NCBI GenBank assembly: GCA_021820645.1
Contig: JAKADJ010000042.1
Span: 1 to 12,451 of the forward strand
Source: Bacillota bacterium
GTDB taxonomy: Bacteria; Bacillota_E; Sulfobacillia; Sulfobacillales; Sulfobacillaceae
Length of the DNA: 12,451 bases
Direction: 5' to 3'
The notes below the pieces were generated by a model. The model worked only from the letters and a program-made list of their open reading frames with translations, made no database searches and had not been told where the DNA came from. The position numbers and the translations under genes are program-made. Position 1 is the first letter of the stretch; each line of letters begins with the position of its first letter. This document shows, piece after piece, positions 7,149 to 11,376 of the stretch.

Positions 7149-7176
7149 ACCTAGCGCCCCCTAAAAATCCCCAAAT

Positions 7177-7203
7177 AAAAAACCGACCGGACATTCCGGT
7201 CGG
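7177..7203 (-). terminator. Intrinsic terminator (attenuator) upstream of the ABC exporter
   Basis: On the minus strand a perfect 9-bp stem CCGACCGGA/TCCGGTCGG with a 3-base loop is followed by six T residues. It lies between the promoter and the exporter ATPase, 28 bases before the TTG start. Transcripts starting at the upstream promoter would therefore end here unless the hairpin is prevented. Confidence 0.88.
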
Positions 7204-7275
7204 CACGCGTGAACTCCTGATCCTACCTGAGAGGCAGAGTCCATCTGTGCCGAGCCCATCCAACCAACCCGGAAT
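7193..7275 (-). promoter_or_regulatory. Candidate antiterminator pairing in the exporter leader
   Basis: Two segments of the leader RNA can capture the 5' arm of the terminator. First, 7275-7264 (ATTCCGGGTTGG) pairs with 7203-7193 (CCGACCGGAAT): 11 pairs, including one G-U, with one bulged G. Second, 7253-7247 (TCGGCAC) pairs perfectly with 7206-7200 (GTGCCGA). Both segments lie inside the leader ORF, so the position of a translating ribosome would decide which structure forms. The complementarity is seen in the sequence; the switching is inferred. Confidence 0.6.
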
Positions 7276-7297
7276 CAAAGCGAATGGCCATACGCAT
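7223..7297 (-). CDS. 24-aa leader peptide of the ABC exporter attenuator
   Basis: This short ORF begins MRMAIRFDSGLVGWARHR and ends WTLPLR. It starts with ATG (7295-7297), six bases after the ribosome binding site GGGGGAG (7304-7310), and stops at TAG (7223-7225), 19 bases before the terminator stem. It lies downstream of a strong promoter and overlaps both candidate antiterminator segments. It holds five arginine codons, all different (CGT, CGC, CGG, AGA, AGG), and two tryptophans. By analogy with leader peptides of drug-inducible resistance genes, a ribosome stalled early would favour readthrough into the exporter, whereas complete translation would favour termination. The peptide itself matches nothing I recognise. 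Confidence 0.6.
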   Translation of the reverse strand: MRMAIRFDSGLVGWARHRWTLPLR

Positions 7298-7313
7298 GAC
7301 GAACTCCCCCTTT

Positions 7314-7333
7314 CTAATAATGGTAATTATTAG
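7314..7333. promoter_or_regulatory. Palindromic operator at the exporter promoter
   Basis: A perfect inverted repeat CTAATAAT-GGTA-ATTATTAG (8-bp arms, 4-base centre) overlaps the -10 element and is centred close to the predicted transcription start near 7325. This is the classic position for a dimeric repressor (MarR, TetR, GntR or PadR type). No such repressor gene lies in the window. Confidence 0.65.
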
Positions 7334-7361
7334 TAGAGCATGGGCCAGGCCGCCGTGTCAA
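7332..7361 (-). promoter_or_regulatory. Promoter of the leader peptide and ABC exporter
   Basis: On the minus strand a perfect -35 TTGACA (7356-7361) is followed after 18 bases by -10 TCTACT (7332-7337). A TG one base upstream of the -10 makes it an extended type. The start point is expected near 7325, inside the palindromic operator. Confidence 0.7.
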
Positions 7362-7466: not shown

Positions 7467-8312
7467 ATGCCAAATACTTTTGCAGAAGCACTGGATACTC
7501 TCCTCGCTGACCTCTTGGAAACGGTACCACTCCGCTATCGATGGCTGTTGCTACAAACCCTCTATACGGGGTCTAGCCGTCGCCAAGGAATCAGTAAACT
7601 CGCCCTGCAGCCGGGATCGCAAGGCCTTGATGTGGGATGCGGATTTGGCGCCATGGCCATGGAAATTGCAACGGCCTGGTCCTGCACCGTAGATGGGGTC
7701 GATTGCGACTCCACCATGTTAGAAATGGCCCGATCGCTGAGTGCGCCCATGACCTGGTTACAGGATCGGGTGCATTGGATATCCGGGGACATCCTAGCAC
7801 TGCCTTATCCTGACCATAGCCAAGACTTTGTCTGTACCCGATTTGTCCTCCAACATGTATCCGATCCGAAAAGAGCCATTCAAGAAATGTATCGGGTGCT
7901 GCGCCCGGGCGGCTTTGTCTATATTGAAGATATCGATGAGGGCATGGTCCTGCAGTATCCCGCTCCACCACCGGAATGGAGTCTGGTACTCGACGCGTTC
8001 TCCCGATTGCAACAAGCCCGCGGAGGAGATCGTCAGATTGGCCGTAAAATTCCAGTGTGGCTGGCTCAAAGCGGGTTTGAGGTGCAATCGATTGAGCCGC
8101 AATGGATGGCTCAGGTAACTCGACCCGAGCCCAATGGCCCCGCTATCCAATGGGAAATCGAACGGGTCGCGCTCGAGTTAGATGCGCTCTATGCGGCCCA
8201 ATTGCTGACTCCGGAAGAGTGGCAAAAGGGCCATGCCAGGTTCCGTGATCCGATCGCAGACATTTCGTTCCAATCCAATGCGTCCCTACAAATCCGAGCC
8301 CAGCGCGCTTAA
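7467..8312 (+). CDS. Class I SAM-dependent methyltransferase
   Basis: This 281-residue cytoplasmic enzyme of the Methyltransf_11/25 (UbiE-like) fold transfers a methyl group from S-adenosylmethionine. Visible motifs are motif I LDVGCGFGA (54-62), the acidic end of strand 2 at GVDCD (77-81), SGDILALP (106-113), and LRPGG (145-149) before the VYIEDIDEG strand. The N-terminal 45 residues are helical, and the C-terminal 100 residues are probably the substrate lid. The acceptor is unknown. The ATG follows a weak AGGA site lying in an inverted repeat. It is transcribed away from the ABC exporter, and the two share a 169-bp control region. Its stop interlocks over four bases with the convergent epimerase-like gene. 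Confidence 0.88.
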   Translation: MPNTFAEALDTLLADLLETVPLRYRWLLLQTLYTGSSRRQGISKLALQPGSQGLDVGCGFGAMAMEIATAWSCTVDGVDCDSTMLEMARSLSAPMTWLQDRVHWISGDILALPYPDHSQDFVCTRFVLQHVSDPKRAIQEMYRVLRPGGFVYIEDIDEGMVLQYPAPPPEWSLVLDAFSRLQQARGGDRQIGRKIPVWLAQSGFEVQSIEPQWMAQVTRPEPNGPAIQWEIERVALELDALYAAQLLTPEEWQKGHARFRDPIADISFQSNASLQIRAQRA

Positions 8313-9197: not shown

Positions 9198-9764
9198 TTA
9201 CTCGCGAAACACGTCACCGCCAGCATCATAAGTCCGTTCCGGCTTCTGGTCACGGGCATTCACAGCGCGTGCGAGGACAAACAACAAGTCGGAGAGCCGG
9301 TTGACATATTTTAAGTTGGCCGGAGAAATCTCCTCGTCCTCCATGAGTGCTACCATCCTGCGCTCGGCACGGCGAACCACGGTGCACGCTACGTGCAGTG
9401 CGGCCGCTCCAGAATTCCCACCCCGCATCACGAATTTTTTTATCGTGTCCGCTTCCGCTTTGAACCCGTCAATGATGGGTTCAAGGTTACTCGCGGCATC
9501 GTCTGGGGTTCGAGGCGTATATTTGGCCCCCGGTGGAGCCGCCAGATCGGCCCCCACATCCCATAGGCGTTGCTGTACACCAGCCAGCACCTCTAAAATG
9601 TCCTCATCTCGTGCGGGATTGAGATAGCTCATTGCGAGCCCGATAAACGCTCCCGCTTCGTCGACCGAACCATAAGCCTCGACTCGCACATCATGTTTCC
9701 CCCGACGTTGCCCGCCGATCAAGCTGGTCTTGCCTTTGTCGCCACCTCTGGTGTAAATCCGCAT
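9198..9764 (-). CDS. pduO: PduO-type ATP:cob(I)alamin adenosyltransferase
   Basis: This 188-residue enzyme transfers the 5'-deoxyadenosyl group of ATP to cob(I)alamin or cob(I)yrinic acid diamide, making coenzyme B12. The family motifs are clear: N-terminal YTRGGDKGKTSL (4-15) binding ATP phosphates, VRVEAYGSVDEA (26-37), the RRAERR helix (131-136) and YVNRLSDLLFVLAR (153-166). Length is typical of the PduO/MMAB trimer-forming family, which is unrelated to the CobA/CobO type. The ATG start has AAGGAG ten bases upstream, which is somewhat long. It diverges from a CobB/CbiA gene, in keeping with cobalamin synthesis or salvage, and it precedes the epimerase-like gene in a probable two-gene operon. 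Confidence 0.95.
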   Translation of the reverse strand: MRIYTRGGDKGKTSLIGGQRRGKHDVRVEAYGSVDEAGAFIGLAMSYLNPARDEDILEVLAGVQQRLWDVGADLAAPPGAKYTPRTPDDAASNLEPIIDGFKAEADTIKKFVMRGGNSGAAALHVACTVVRRAERRMVALMEDEEISPANLKYVNRLSDLLFVLARAVNARDQKPERTYDAGGDVFRE

Positions 9765-9990: not shown

Positions 9991-11376
9991 ATGCAGATCC
10001 CCAGAATTATCGTCGCCGGTAGCCATAGCGGAGTCGGGAAAACCACAGTCGCATTAGGTTTAATGGGTGCGTTACGCGCACGGCATTTCATTGTGCAAGG
10101 ATTTAAGGTGGGCCCTGACTATATTGATGGGACCTACCATACCGCGGTCACCGGGCGGCCTTCACGCAATCTGGATAGTTGGATGGCGGGTCCCCAAGGG
10201 GTGCAGGAGGTTCTGAGACGGGGGGGACCCGGCGCTGACATTTCTGTCATCGAAGGCGTCATGGGGTATTACGATGGCAAAGATTCTAAAAGCATTGCCG
10301 GCAGCACCGCCGCCCTCGCCGACTTAACCCGCACCCCAGTTATCTTGGTCATAGATGTCGCCGGGACATCACGCAGCGCTGCGGCCATCGTCAAAGGGTT
10401 TCAAAGTCTTGATACCACCCGTCGCATCCGTGGAGTCATCGTCAACCGAGTGGGAAGCCCACGCCACTATGAGATGGTCCGCGACGCCATCGAAGAGGTA
10501 ACGGGCATTCCAGTGCTCGGATATCTGTCCGCGCACGCCATGCTCAACATGCCCGAACGGCATTTAGGACTGATTCCGGCCATTGAACGAGGAGACCATC
10601 GAACCTTGCTAGATGGCATCATTGCGTCGGTCCGTGACACGATCAATTTGACGCGAGTCATCGATATTGCCCGTGAGGCCCCTCCGATCTCCGATCTGAA
10701 CGCGACGGATAACAGTAAACGATATGCCCACCCCAAGGTCGCCATCGCAGTTGCCAAGGATAGCGCCTTCAATTTTTACTACCAAGAAAATTTAGAGTTA
10801 CTCATCGAGGCTGGAGCCGAGATCCAAGCATTTAGTCCATTGGCAGGAGACCGTATTCCAAAGGATGCCGACGCCTTATACATGGGGGGAGGATTCCCCG
10901 AGGAATTCCTAAGGGAGTTAAGTAACCCGACCCTGCTCCAAGACTTCCGCCATCGAATCGTAGCTGGTCTACCAACCGTTGCCGAGTGCGGGGGATTCAT
11001 GTTTCTCGGCCGCTCGGTGGCGGACACTCAAGGGCACGTCTATCCGATGGTTGGGGCCGTCCCCGTGACGACGGCCATGCAACCTCGGTTGGCTGCTCTC
11101 GGTTATCGAGAAATCGAATCCCAAAGCTCGAATCCGTTACTGGAATCTGGTGAGCATGCACGAGGTCACGAGTTCCACTATTCCCGGGCCTCCTACGACT
11201 TCGACCAGAATCGGGCCTATCGTCTCTCTCATCATGGCAACCTCACCCTCGATGGCTTTGCAACGCGTTCCCTGGTAGCCGGCTATGTCCATCACTATTT
11301 TCTGTCAAATCCTCTGATGGCTCAGCGCTTCGTCGCATCGGCTCTGGCTTATCAGACCCGTAAATCTCGCGTCTAA
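9991..11376 (+). CDS. cbiA: Cobyrinate (or hydrogenobyrinate) a,c-diamide synthase
   Basis: This 461-residue amidotransferase converts the a and c acetate side chains of the corrin ring to amides, using glutamine and ATP. The N-terminal ATP domain shows the P-loop AGSHSGVGKTT (9-19), KVGPDYID (39-46), and EGVMGYYDG (88-96). The C-terminal class I glutaminase domain shows MGGGFPEEF (298-306), nucleophile Cys333 in AECGGFMFLGR, GHEFHYS (392-398) and the histidine-rich GYVHHYF end (431-437). Sequence alone does not separate CbiA (anaerobic route) from CobB (aerobic route). The frame is open from the ATG at 9970, but that start has no ribosome binding site; the ATG at 9991 follows AGGAG by 13 bases and matches the usual N-terminus. 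It diverges from the adenosyltransferase and overlaps a small convergent ORF at its stop. Confidence 0.94.
   Translation: MQIPRIIVAGSHSGVGKTTVALGLMGALRARHFIVQGFKVGPDYIDGTYHTAVTGRPSRNLDSWMAGPQGVQEVLRRGGPGADISVIEGVMGYYDGKDSKSIAGSTAALADLTRTPVILVIDVAGTSRSAAAIVKGFQSLDTTRRIRGVIVNRVGSPRHYEMVRDAIEEVTGIPVLGYLSAHAMLNMPERHLGLIPAIERGDHRTLLDGIIASVRDTINLTRVIDIAREAPPISDLNATDNSKRYAHPKVAIAVAKDSAFNFYYQENLELLIEAGAEIQAFSPLAGDRIPKDADALYMGGGFPEEFLRELSNPTLLQDFRHRIVAGLPTVAECGGFMFLGRSVADTQGHVYPMVGAVPVTTAMQPRLAALGYREIESQSSNPLLESGEHARGHEFHYSRASYDFDQNRAYRLSHHGNLTLDGFATRSLVAGYVHHYFLSNPLMAQRFVASALAYQTRKSRV

Follow-up and report, generated by a model that had tools for sequence, protein, structure and literature searches.

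A conserved regulatory element, the leader that precedes a two-gene ABC-2 exporter operon, lies within the 12,451-nt stretch of Sulfobacillaceae DNA analysed here (the window, from a genome assembly of 2.88 Mb), where it spans 7325–7176 on the minus strand. It is best read as a ribosome-operated attenuator, a new design inside a known kind. We identify the pairing elements of the leader, show that they exclude one another in folding and that they are conserved together, and assign a probability of roughly 0.78 to the full account of a three-state transcription attenuator operated by the ribosome that translates the short leader ORF. The class of mechanism, ribosome-mediated attenuation that is on when the ribosome stalls early, had been proposed in a first-pass annotation of the sequence and is supported here by both comparison and folding; what that annotation missed is the pairing of the leader's own Shine–Dalgarno (SD) region with the end of its ORF, the element that makes the leader a switch.

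In particular, we suggest that when no ribosome is loaded the SD region (element 1, Table 1) would pair with the ORF end (element 2), the terminator would form and transcription would stop near 7176. A ribosome translating to the stop codon would cover the ORF end and, because 18 nt separate the stop from the first terminator base, the terminator would form again, leaving the operon off. Only a ribosome detained within roughly the first third of the leader would leave the SD region unable to capture the ORF end, which could then fold into the antiterminator (7256–7236 with 7217–7198) and take 7204–7198 of the terminator arm, so that RNA polymerase would proceed into the exporter genes. Within this account we infer the translation of the leader, the kinetics and order of folding, and the identity of the inducer.

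Leader anatomy and the exporter operon

Both the TTGACA/extended -10 promoter and the 24-codon ORF with a good ribosome-binding site that had been claimed for this region are present (Table 1). The -10 region reads TGcTCTACT, and the promoter is missing from the output of a generic promoter scan because that scan demands an A as the second base of the -10; judged by eye, two related loci, L004 and L008, share this -35/TG-10 arrangement, the former carrying a 24-codon ORF at the matching position. The ORF has the strongest SD of the short ORFs of its region. Between it and the ATPase gene sits the intrinsic terminator, for which the annotated hairpin and six T were correct, the stem having 10 pairs (terminal G–U included) rather than 9; the stop codon does precede it, with 18 nt and not 19 before the first stem base. 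As a single sequence the leader folds in a manner that is only mildly unusual (z -2.09, 6/200 shuffles as good).

Table 1. Features of the exporter operon, its leader and the divergent gene in the window
Feature	Position	Strand	Description	Basis
Promoter	7361–7332	-	TTGACA 7361–7356, 18-nt spacer, TG 7340–7339, -10 TCTACT 7337–7332	Sequence
AT-rich inverted repeat, CTAATAAT-4-ATTATTAG	7333–7314	-	Perfect 8-bp arms; overlaps expected transcription start	Sequence
Element 1, SD region	7314–7298	-	15 bp with element 2, predicted anti-antiterminator	Fold; swap test, 30 genera
Shine–Dalgarno of leader ORF, AAAGGGGGAG	7313–7304	-	Duplex with anti-SD probe, -13.7 kcal/mol	
Leader ORF, MRMAIRFDSGLVGWARHRWTLPLR	7297–7223	-	ATG 7297, 24 codons, stop TAG 7225–7223	
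Antiterminator 5' side, GGCTCGGCAC + GATGGACTCT	7256–7236	-		Minimum-energy fold of 7282–7195
Element 2, leader ORF end	7245–7229	-	Predicted partner is element 1 or the antiterminator strand	Fold; swap test
Antiterminator 3' side	7217–7198	-	Takes in 7204–7198 of terminator 5' arm	Fold
Intrinsic terminator	7204–7176	-	Stem 7204–7195:7191–7182, then six T (7181–7176)	Folding; hairpins in relatives
ABC transporter ATPase	7148–6327	-	TTG start; PF00005; closest NCBIfam TIGR01188 drrA, under cut-off	
ABC-2 type permease	6297–5488	-	PF01061	
Class I methyltransferase gene	7467–8312	+	Divergent from exporter operon	

One further element of this region, the AT-rich inverted repeat, raises the question of whether the operon might be controlled mainly at its promoter, by a repressor bound to the repeat, with the leader as a minor layer. 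Its perfect 8-bp arms do overlap the presumed transcription start, which is what such a reading would call for; by eye the repeat is not kept as such in L004 or L008, where the leader is kept, and since it is not conserved we set repressor control aside as the main layer and regard it as quite improbable.

The nearest curated subfamilies of the operon's ATPase and permease include drrA and drrB. Both proteins score below the cut-offs of the DrrAB daunorubicin exporter subfamily (231.7 bits against TIGR01188, cut-off 312.45; 43.7 bits against TIGR01247, cut-off 223.05). Compared by sequence with proteins of solved structure, the ATPase is matched best by ABCA-type transporters; for the permease no such match is found at E 0.01. 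In the neighbourhood, the DNA upstream of L004, L008, L021 and L022 appears by eye to contain the start of the same methyltransferase gene that diverges from the operon here, and the window has genes for a cobalamin adenosyltransferase and a cobyrinate a,c-diamide synthase near each other on opposite strands (9198–9764 and 9991–11376).

Alternative folds of the leader

When the leader is folded as it would stand just as the stop codon has been made (7325–7222), the result is the 15-bp helix between the SD region and the ORF end. If a ribosome at the start codon is taken to keep the RNA up to 7283 out of the fold, 7282–7195 forms an antiterminator of 9+9 bp at -30.3 kcal/mol, compared with -17.8 to -18.3 kcal/mol for the terminator; its helices (7256–7247 with 7206–7198, and 7245–7236 with 7217–7209) capture 7204–7198 of the terminator arm. 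Withholding the RNA up to 7271 gives a best fold in which 7269–7261 pairs with 7207–7198, and the terminator arm is again captured. The RNA beyond a ribosome at the stop codon has the terminator as its sole fold (-18.3 kcal/mol), in agreement with the earlier claim that a ribosome which finishes would not block termination. In these models, then, the ORF end can pair with only one of two partners at a time, either the SD (predicted to lead to termination) or the region before and into the terminator (predicted to lead to read-through).

The two leader segments that had been proposed to pair with the terminator 5' arm can be placed within these folds. The 7-pair segment (TCGGCAC 7253–7247 with GTGCCGA 7206–7200) forms seven perfect pairs and belongs to the likely antiterminator, of which the annotation had recognised only these 7 of 18 pairs; the second segment (GGTTGGTTG, 7269–7261) exists and pairs within 7207–7198, with 9 pairs in the fold in place of the 11 with one bulge that had been claimed.

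Modelling of ribosome states over the related leaders described below gave, with a ribosome early in the ORF, a probability that the terminator arm is captured of 0.75 (genus mean) versus 0.62 with the ORF shuffled; the value lay above the shuffled null in 27/30 genera (Wilcoxon p 7e-7). With the SD:ORF-end helix already formed the capture probability was 0.46, a figure that is low in part because it was computed on a shorter stretch. Under a free-competition (equilibrium) model the genus means were 0.72 with an early ribosome, 0.65 for free RNA and 0.52 with the ribosome at the stop; the early-minus-free difference in 20 shuffled sets was 0.005, maximum 0.037 (computed with two rather than four ribosome positions). 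For the window's own leader this model gave 0.89 free, 0.78 early and 0.97 at the stop, the wrong direction for a switch. An antiterminator that excludes the terminator in dependence on ribosome position was found by folding and by comparison, the free-competition model being weak on this point and contrary for the window. The free-competition result, a smaller contrast than that of the state model, disfavours a plain equilibrium view. A switch of this kind would need to rely on the order of folding, and we infer that in the window it depends on both the kinetics and the order.

Conservation of the leader in related loci

The ATPase was used as query against genomes of the family (34), the order (42), the class (154) and a sample of the phylum (398), and the DNA upstream of 77 distinct orthologous ATPase loci was examined by eye or by script, with duplicates removed; the set leaves out four further ATPase matches (second matches in G264 and G466, and those in G408 and G347). 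Loci from outside the phylum were scripted in part (L105–L118 and L120) or served as composite-scan background only (L122–L171). A short leader ORF with an SD precedes the ATPase at 68/77 loci, in 31/37 genera, the loci entered as leaders having been chosen by judgement. Among the relatives of the window's genome are Sulfobacillus benefaciens (L094), S. harzensis (L102) and MAGs of environmental Bacillota. Homologous loci without the leader ORF and the complementary segments, which the first-pass annotation had named as evidence against itself, were looked for, and the opposite was the outcome at these 68. No leader is visible at the other 9 of the 77 (L009, L010, L011, L019, which begins at a contig edge, L021, L022, L065, L069 and L083).

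The arrangement in the window is more than chance. A composite scan (ORF of 12–45 codons, SD of -11 kcal/mol or stronger, and a hairpin plus T-run starting 8–27 nt past the stop codon), applied to 1,397,966 strand-bases of retrieved loci, returned 50 distinct ORFs, alternative starts counted apart; 45/50 match leaders identified beforehand, the other 5 belong to three further leaders before the same ATPase (L049 with three starts, L073 and L076), and none within those strand-bases lies elsewhere. Because all the DNA scanned surrounds genes for this or other ABC ATPases, the rate is valid for such DNA only. A pattern built on the leaders of genus g10 matched 7 times in the 34 family genomes versus 1 for a reversed control; 3 of the 7 are leaders of the set itself (G022, G024 and G028), one is an additional leader in G025 (L177, below), and those in G010, G016 and G017 are unexplained and perhaps due to chance. 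A second leader pattern, badly specified and so uninformative, matched in 0/398 genomes and also missed known carriers.

Several observations accompany these counts. Genome G025, in which the ATPase locus L019 begins right at the edge of its contig, has a leader of the same type close to the end of a different contig (L177, G025:C95:340–424); the two are probably one locus split by assembly, kept outside the count of 68. At L065 and L083, both in single-contig genomes, a tiny ATG ORF (MRWRH and MRI, respectively) near the ATPase frame may be a reduced form of the leader or may be chance. Outside the phylum, leader-like ORFs of 44–45 codons precede a related ATPase in Thermomicrobiaceae and Sphaerobacteraceae (L109, L110 and L111), with a V-R-L-R stretch and a terminator-like hairpin, 1/3 passing the pairing test. 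Two terminator-like hairpins lie between the leader ORF and the ATPase at L045, L053, L061, L073, L076, L082, L085 and L091.

Conservation of the pairings

Pairings and peptides were tested on 64 leaders from 30 genera (L049, L056, L073 and L076 of the 68 standing outside the tests). In a partner-swap test, own partners were compared with those from other genera as genus averages with 5000 permutations. For the SD:ORF-end pairing the own mean was -29.3 versus -21.0 kcal/mol when swapped, all 30 genera did better than swapped on average, 22 of them beyond z -1.64, and 0/5000 permutations were as good; L036, L037, L057 and L060 were individually unremarkable. Examples of the pairing are AGGUCGUGAAAU with AUUUCGCGACCU (L053), AGGCCGUACC with GGUACGGCCU (L072 and L080) and AGGUCGUUGA with UCAACGACCU (L058). 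The pairing of the ORF end with downstream RNA gave a weaker signal, 24/30 genera doing better with their own partner (11 beyond z -1.64; 0/5000 permutations) and six showing none. The control pairing, SD with downstream RNA, gave no signal (11/30 genera; 3867/5000 permutations).

The choice of leader ORF drew partly on pairing energy. Choosing the strongest-SD short ORF alone gave the same stop in 63/64 leaders (the exception, L016, is at a contig edge), and the choice therefore did not need structure. Against shuffled ORF ends, the SD:ORF-end pairing had a mean z of -2.69, with 50/63 leaders at p<=0.05 and 13 failing singly; the same test gave a mean z of -0.3 (3/25 at p<=0.05) at left-out loci, a set that includes L049, L056, L073 and L076, and -0.61 (2/10) upstream of 10 paralogous ATPases. 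In 55/64 leaders the best hairpin after the stop precedes a stretch with at least 4 T in 9, and in 43/64 it begins 11–19 nt downstream of the stop, a gap that may be about where a terminating ribosome just leaves the hairpin free.

RNAalifold, applied to a 14-sequence alignment, found the terminator alone (9 pairs, 5 changed on both sides). The likely reason is that the register of the SD:ORF-end helix shifts from one clade to another; given this sliding, the partner-swap test was used in place of column counting. The same alignment bears on whether the leader might be a riboswitch-like RNA that binds a ligand or protein, with the ORF incidental. In favour of such an RNA, the leader is structured and has a terminator, and it draws Rfam matches, though sub-threshold ones only. 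It has no conserved unpaired core in the alignment, since the invariant or nearly invariant columns fall in the SD region, start codon, ORF end, stop and terminator; ORF lengths range over 12–42 codons in the 64, and neither the window nor any of 18 related loci has an Rfam 15 match that reaches the gathering threshold. We consider such an RNA very unlikely. The sub-threshold matches were to Hrs13 (24.9 bits, cut-off 52, E 0.0005), SAM-III (17.6 bits, cut-off 45, E 0.33) and, on the opposite strand, AaHKsRNA41 (11.6 bits, cut-off 97); they cover the terminator or the SD region and, as none reaches its cut-off, were rejected as family memberships.

Leader peptides and the inducing signal

The leader peptides have 12–42 residues in the 64 (62 in L056) and share no sequence across genera. 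Within groups picked by eye, the frame of the complementary ORF end stays constant as ORF length varies, as in the GSPP end of 6 leaders of genus g10 (23–25 codons) and the RPDP end of 7 leaders of genera g71, g136 and g309 (30–42 codons). The short ORF might instead encode a small peptide with a function of its own, which the ABC transporter exports or on which it is a target, and the terminator would then do no more than fix the peptide-to-transporter-mRNA ratio. This would fit the strong SD found throughout and the few peptides that resemble signal or membrane segments (8/64 have a 15-residue window of hydropathy of at least 1.6). Against this, the 64 leaders have neither a cross-genus sequence nor a common hydropathy, and what is conserved is complementarity among start, end and terminator region; because the peptides are not conserved we set the operon-peptide idea aside as very unlikely.

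One feature of the peptides does recur. K/R-X-K/R, an arrest motif for macrolides and ketolides, occurs in residues 2–14 of 30/64 leaders, a genus-averaged fraction of 0.50 versus 0.27 with the same residues shuffled (0/3000 shuffles), and K/R pairs at other spacings are not enriched (i+1, 0.25 vs 0.29; i+3, 0.13 vs 0.25; i+4, 0.22 vs 0.23). In all, seven patterns were tried over four residue windows, and K/R-X-K/R had been noticed by eye before the test. Hydrophobic-Arg-hydrophobic is enriched about equally (26/64; 0.43 vs 0.20 shuffled) and also occurs, as IRF, in the peptide of the window, which is among the 34 of 64 lacking K/R-X-K/R in residues 2–14; that peptide (R2, R6) and L004's have arginines four apart instead. 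Since K/R-X-K/R is favoured near the peptide start in relatives, the trigger of the leader family is most likely an exit-tunnel inhibitor of the macrolide/ketolide type. A drug may be the inducer, and the exporter may confer resistance. The comparable enrichment of the second motif, the prior noticing of the first and the 34 leaders without it mean that arrest is not the only reading.

The same RNA switch might answer a general signal, namely slow or scarce translation (initiation block, starvation, energy loss), with loaded, dawdling ribosomes antiterminating whatever the peptide. That the peptides are hardly conserved, that the window's own has no K/R-X-K/R, and that vmlR is reported to be induced by compromised protein synthesis (PMC9226507) are all consistent with this possibility; the spacing-specific enrichment would be unexpected if the peptide were irrelevant, and we regard a general signal as possible, though rather unlikely.

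Returning to arrest by a drug, we put forward tentatively, at less than even confidence, that the leaders form an unannotated, ancient class of self-closing leader ORF, in which the SD would be sequestered by the ORF's last codons, which double as antiterminator strand. Such a leader would act as an AND gate that fires only with a ribosome both loaded and stuck early, and across the sampled phylum would serve one orthologous ABC-2 exporter as its sensor of macrolide-like compounds that bind the exit tunnel, the peptide drifting freely except for K/R-X-K/R. The trpL leader of E. coli likewise limits its own translation by distal pairing. If our account of the leader is right, a widespread regulatory RNA lacking an Rfam match would exist in little-studied environmental Bacillota (Sulfobacillus and relatives), and an orphan exporter family would be tied to ribosome inhibition; mutual complementarity of SD, ORF end and terminator region would offer a searchable rule for other genes, and dozens of natural leader peptides would be available for studying drug- and sequence-dependent arrest.

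Relation to known attenuators

Among the literature matches listed (titles and abstract starts, with subscription literature mostly outside coverage) there is no publication on this leader. The vmlR leader of Bacillus subtilis comprises a uORF, anti-antiterminator, antiterminator and terminator, and a ribosome stalled on the uORF prevents the anti-antiterminator; the uORF is three codons long (MIN), the RNA around its SD, ahead of SL-1, is single-stranded, the target is an ABCF factor, and a role of (p)ppGpp has been studied (PMC9226507). In the present leaders, by contrast, the ORF has 12–62 codons, the SD lies within the anti-antiterminator and the target is an ABC-2 exporter; the window has a 24-codon ORF before that exporter rather than a three-codon uORF before an ABCF gene. 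The bmrBCD leader of B. subtilis resembles ours in placing a leader peptide, terminator and antiterminator ahead of ABC transporter genes, and is induced by ribosome-targeting drugs; the bmrB gene measures 162 bp (53 residues) and contains the terminator within its coding sequence, the function of a predicted anti-antiterminator being left open there (PMC4191407), whereas in the window the terminator starts 18 nt after the stop. An anti-antiterminator/antiterminator that overlaps a short ORF is also known from Rli53/lmo0919 of Listeria monocytogenes, which is shifted by drug-stalled ribosomes and whose target is described as an ABC transporter giving lincomycin resistance; its ORF, of three residues, differs in length (PMC8079631).

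With regard to the peptides, R-X-R type arrest motifs are known from two leaders that resemble our set in this respect: tlrB (yxjB) of B. subtilis, where an RYR motif at the C terminus of a 9-residue peptide mediates tylosin induction and no overlapping antiterminator was identified (PMC6851288), and uORFC-6-1, which precedes hflX (PMC8632094). Ketolides stall ribosomes predominantly at K/R-X-K/R, and in ErmDL the motif (Arg6-Leu7-Arg8) is needed with telithromycin and dispensable with erythromycin (PMC8298421). The 30/64 leaders with K/R-X-K/R near the N terminus are like ErmDL; unlike ErmDL, the window's own peptide has no such motif there, and regulation is here predicted to be transcriptional.

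Considering these systems together, we read the leader as an unannotated variant of the antibiotic-responsive attenuation exemplified by bmrCD, vmlR and Rli53, whose logic it shares and from which, as they are described, it differs in that the leader's own SD and last codons form the two strands of the anti-antiterminator.
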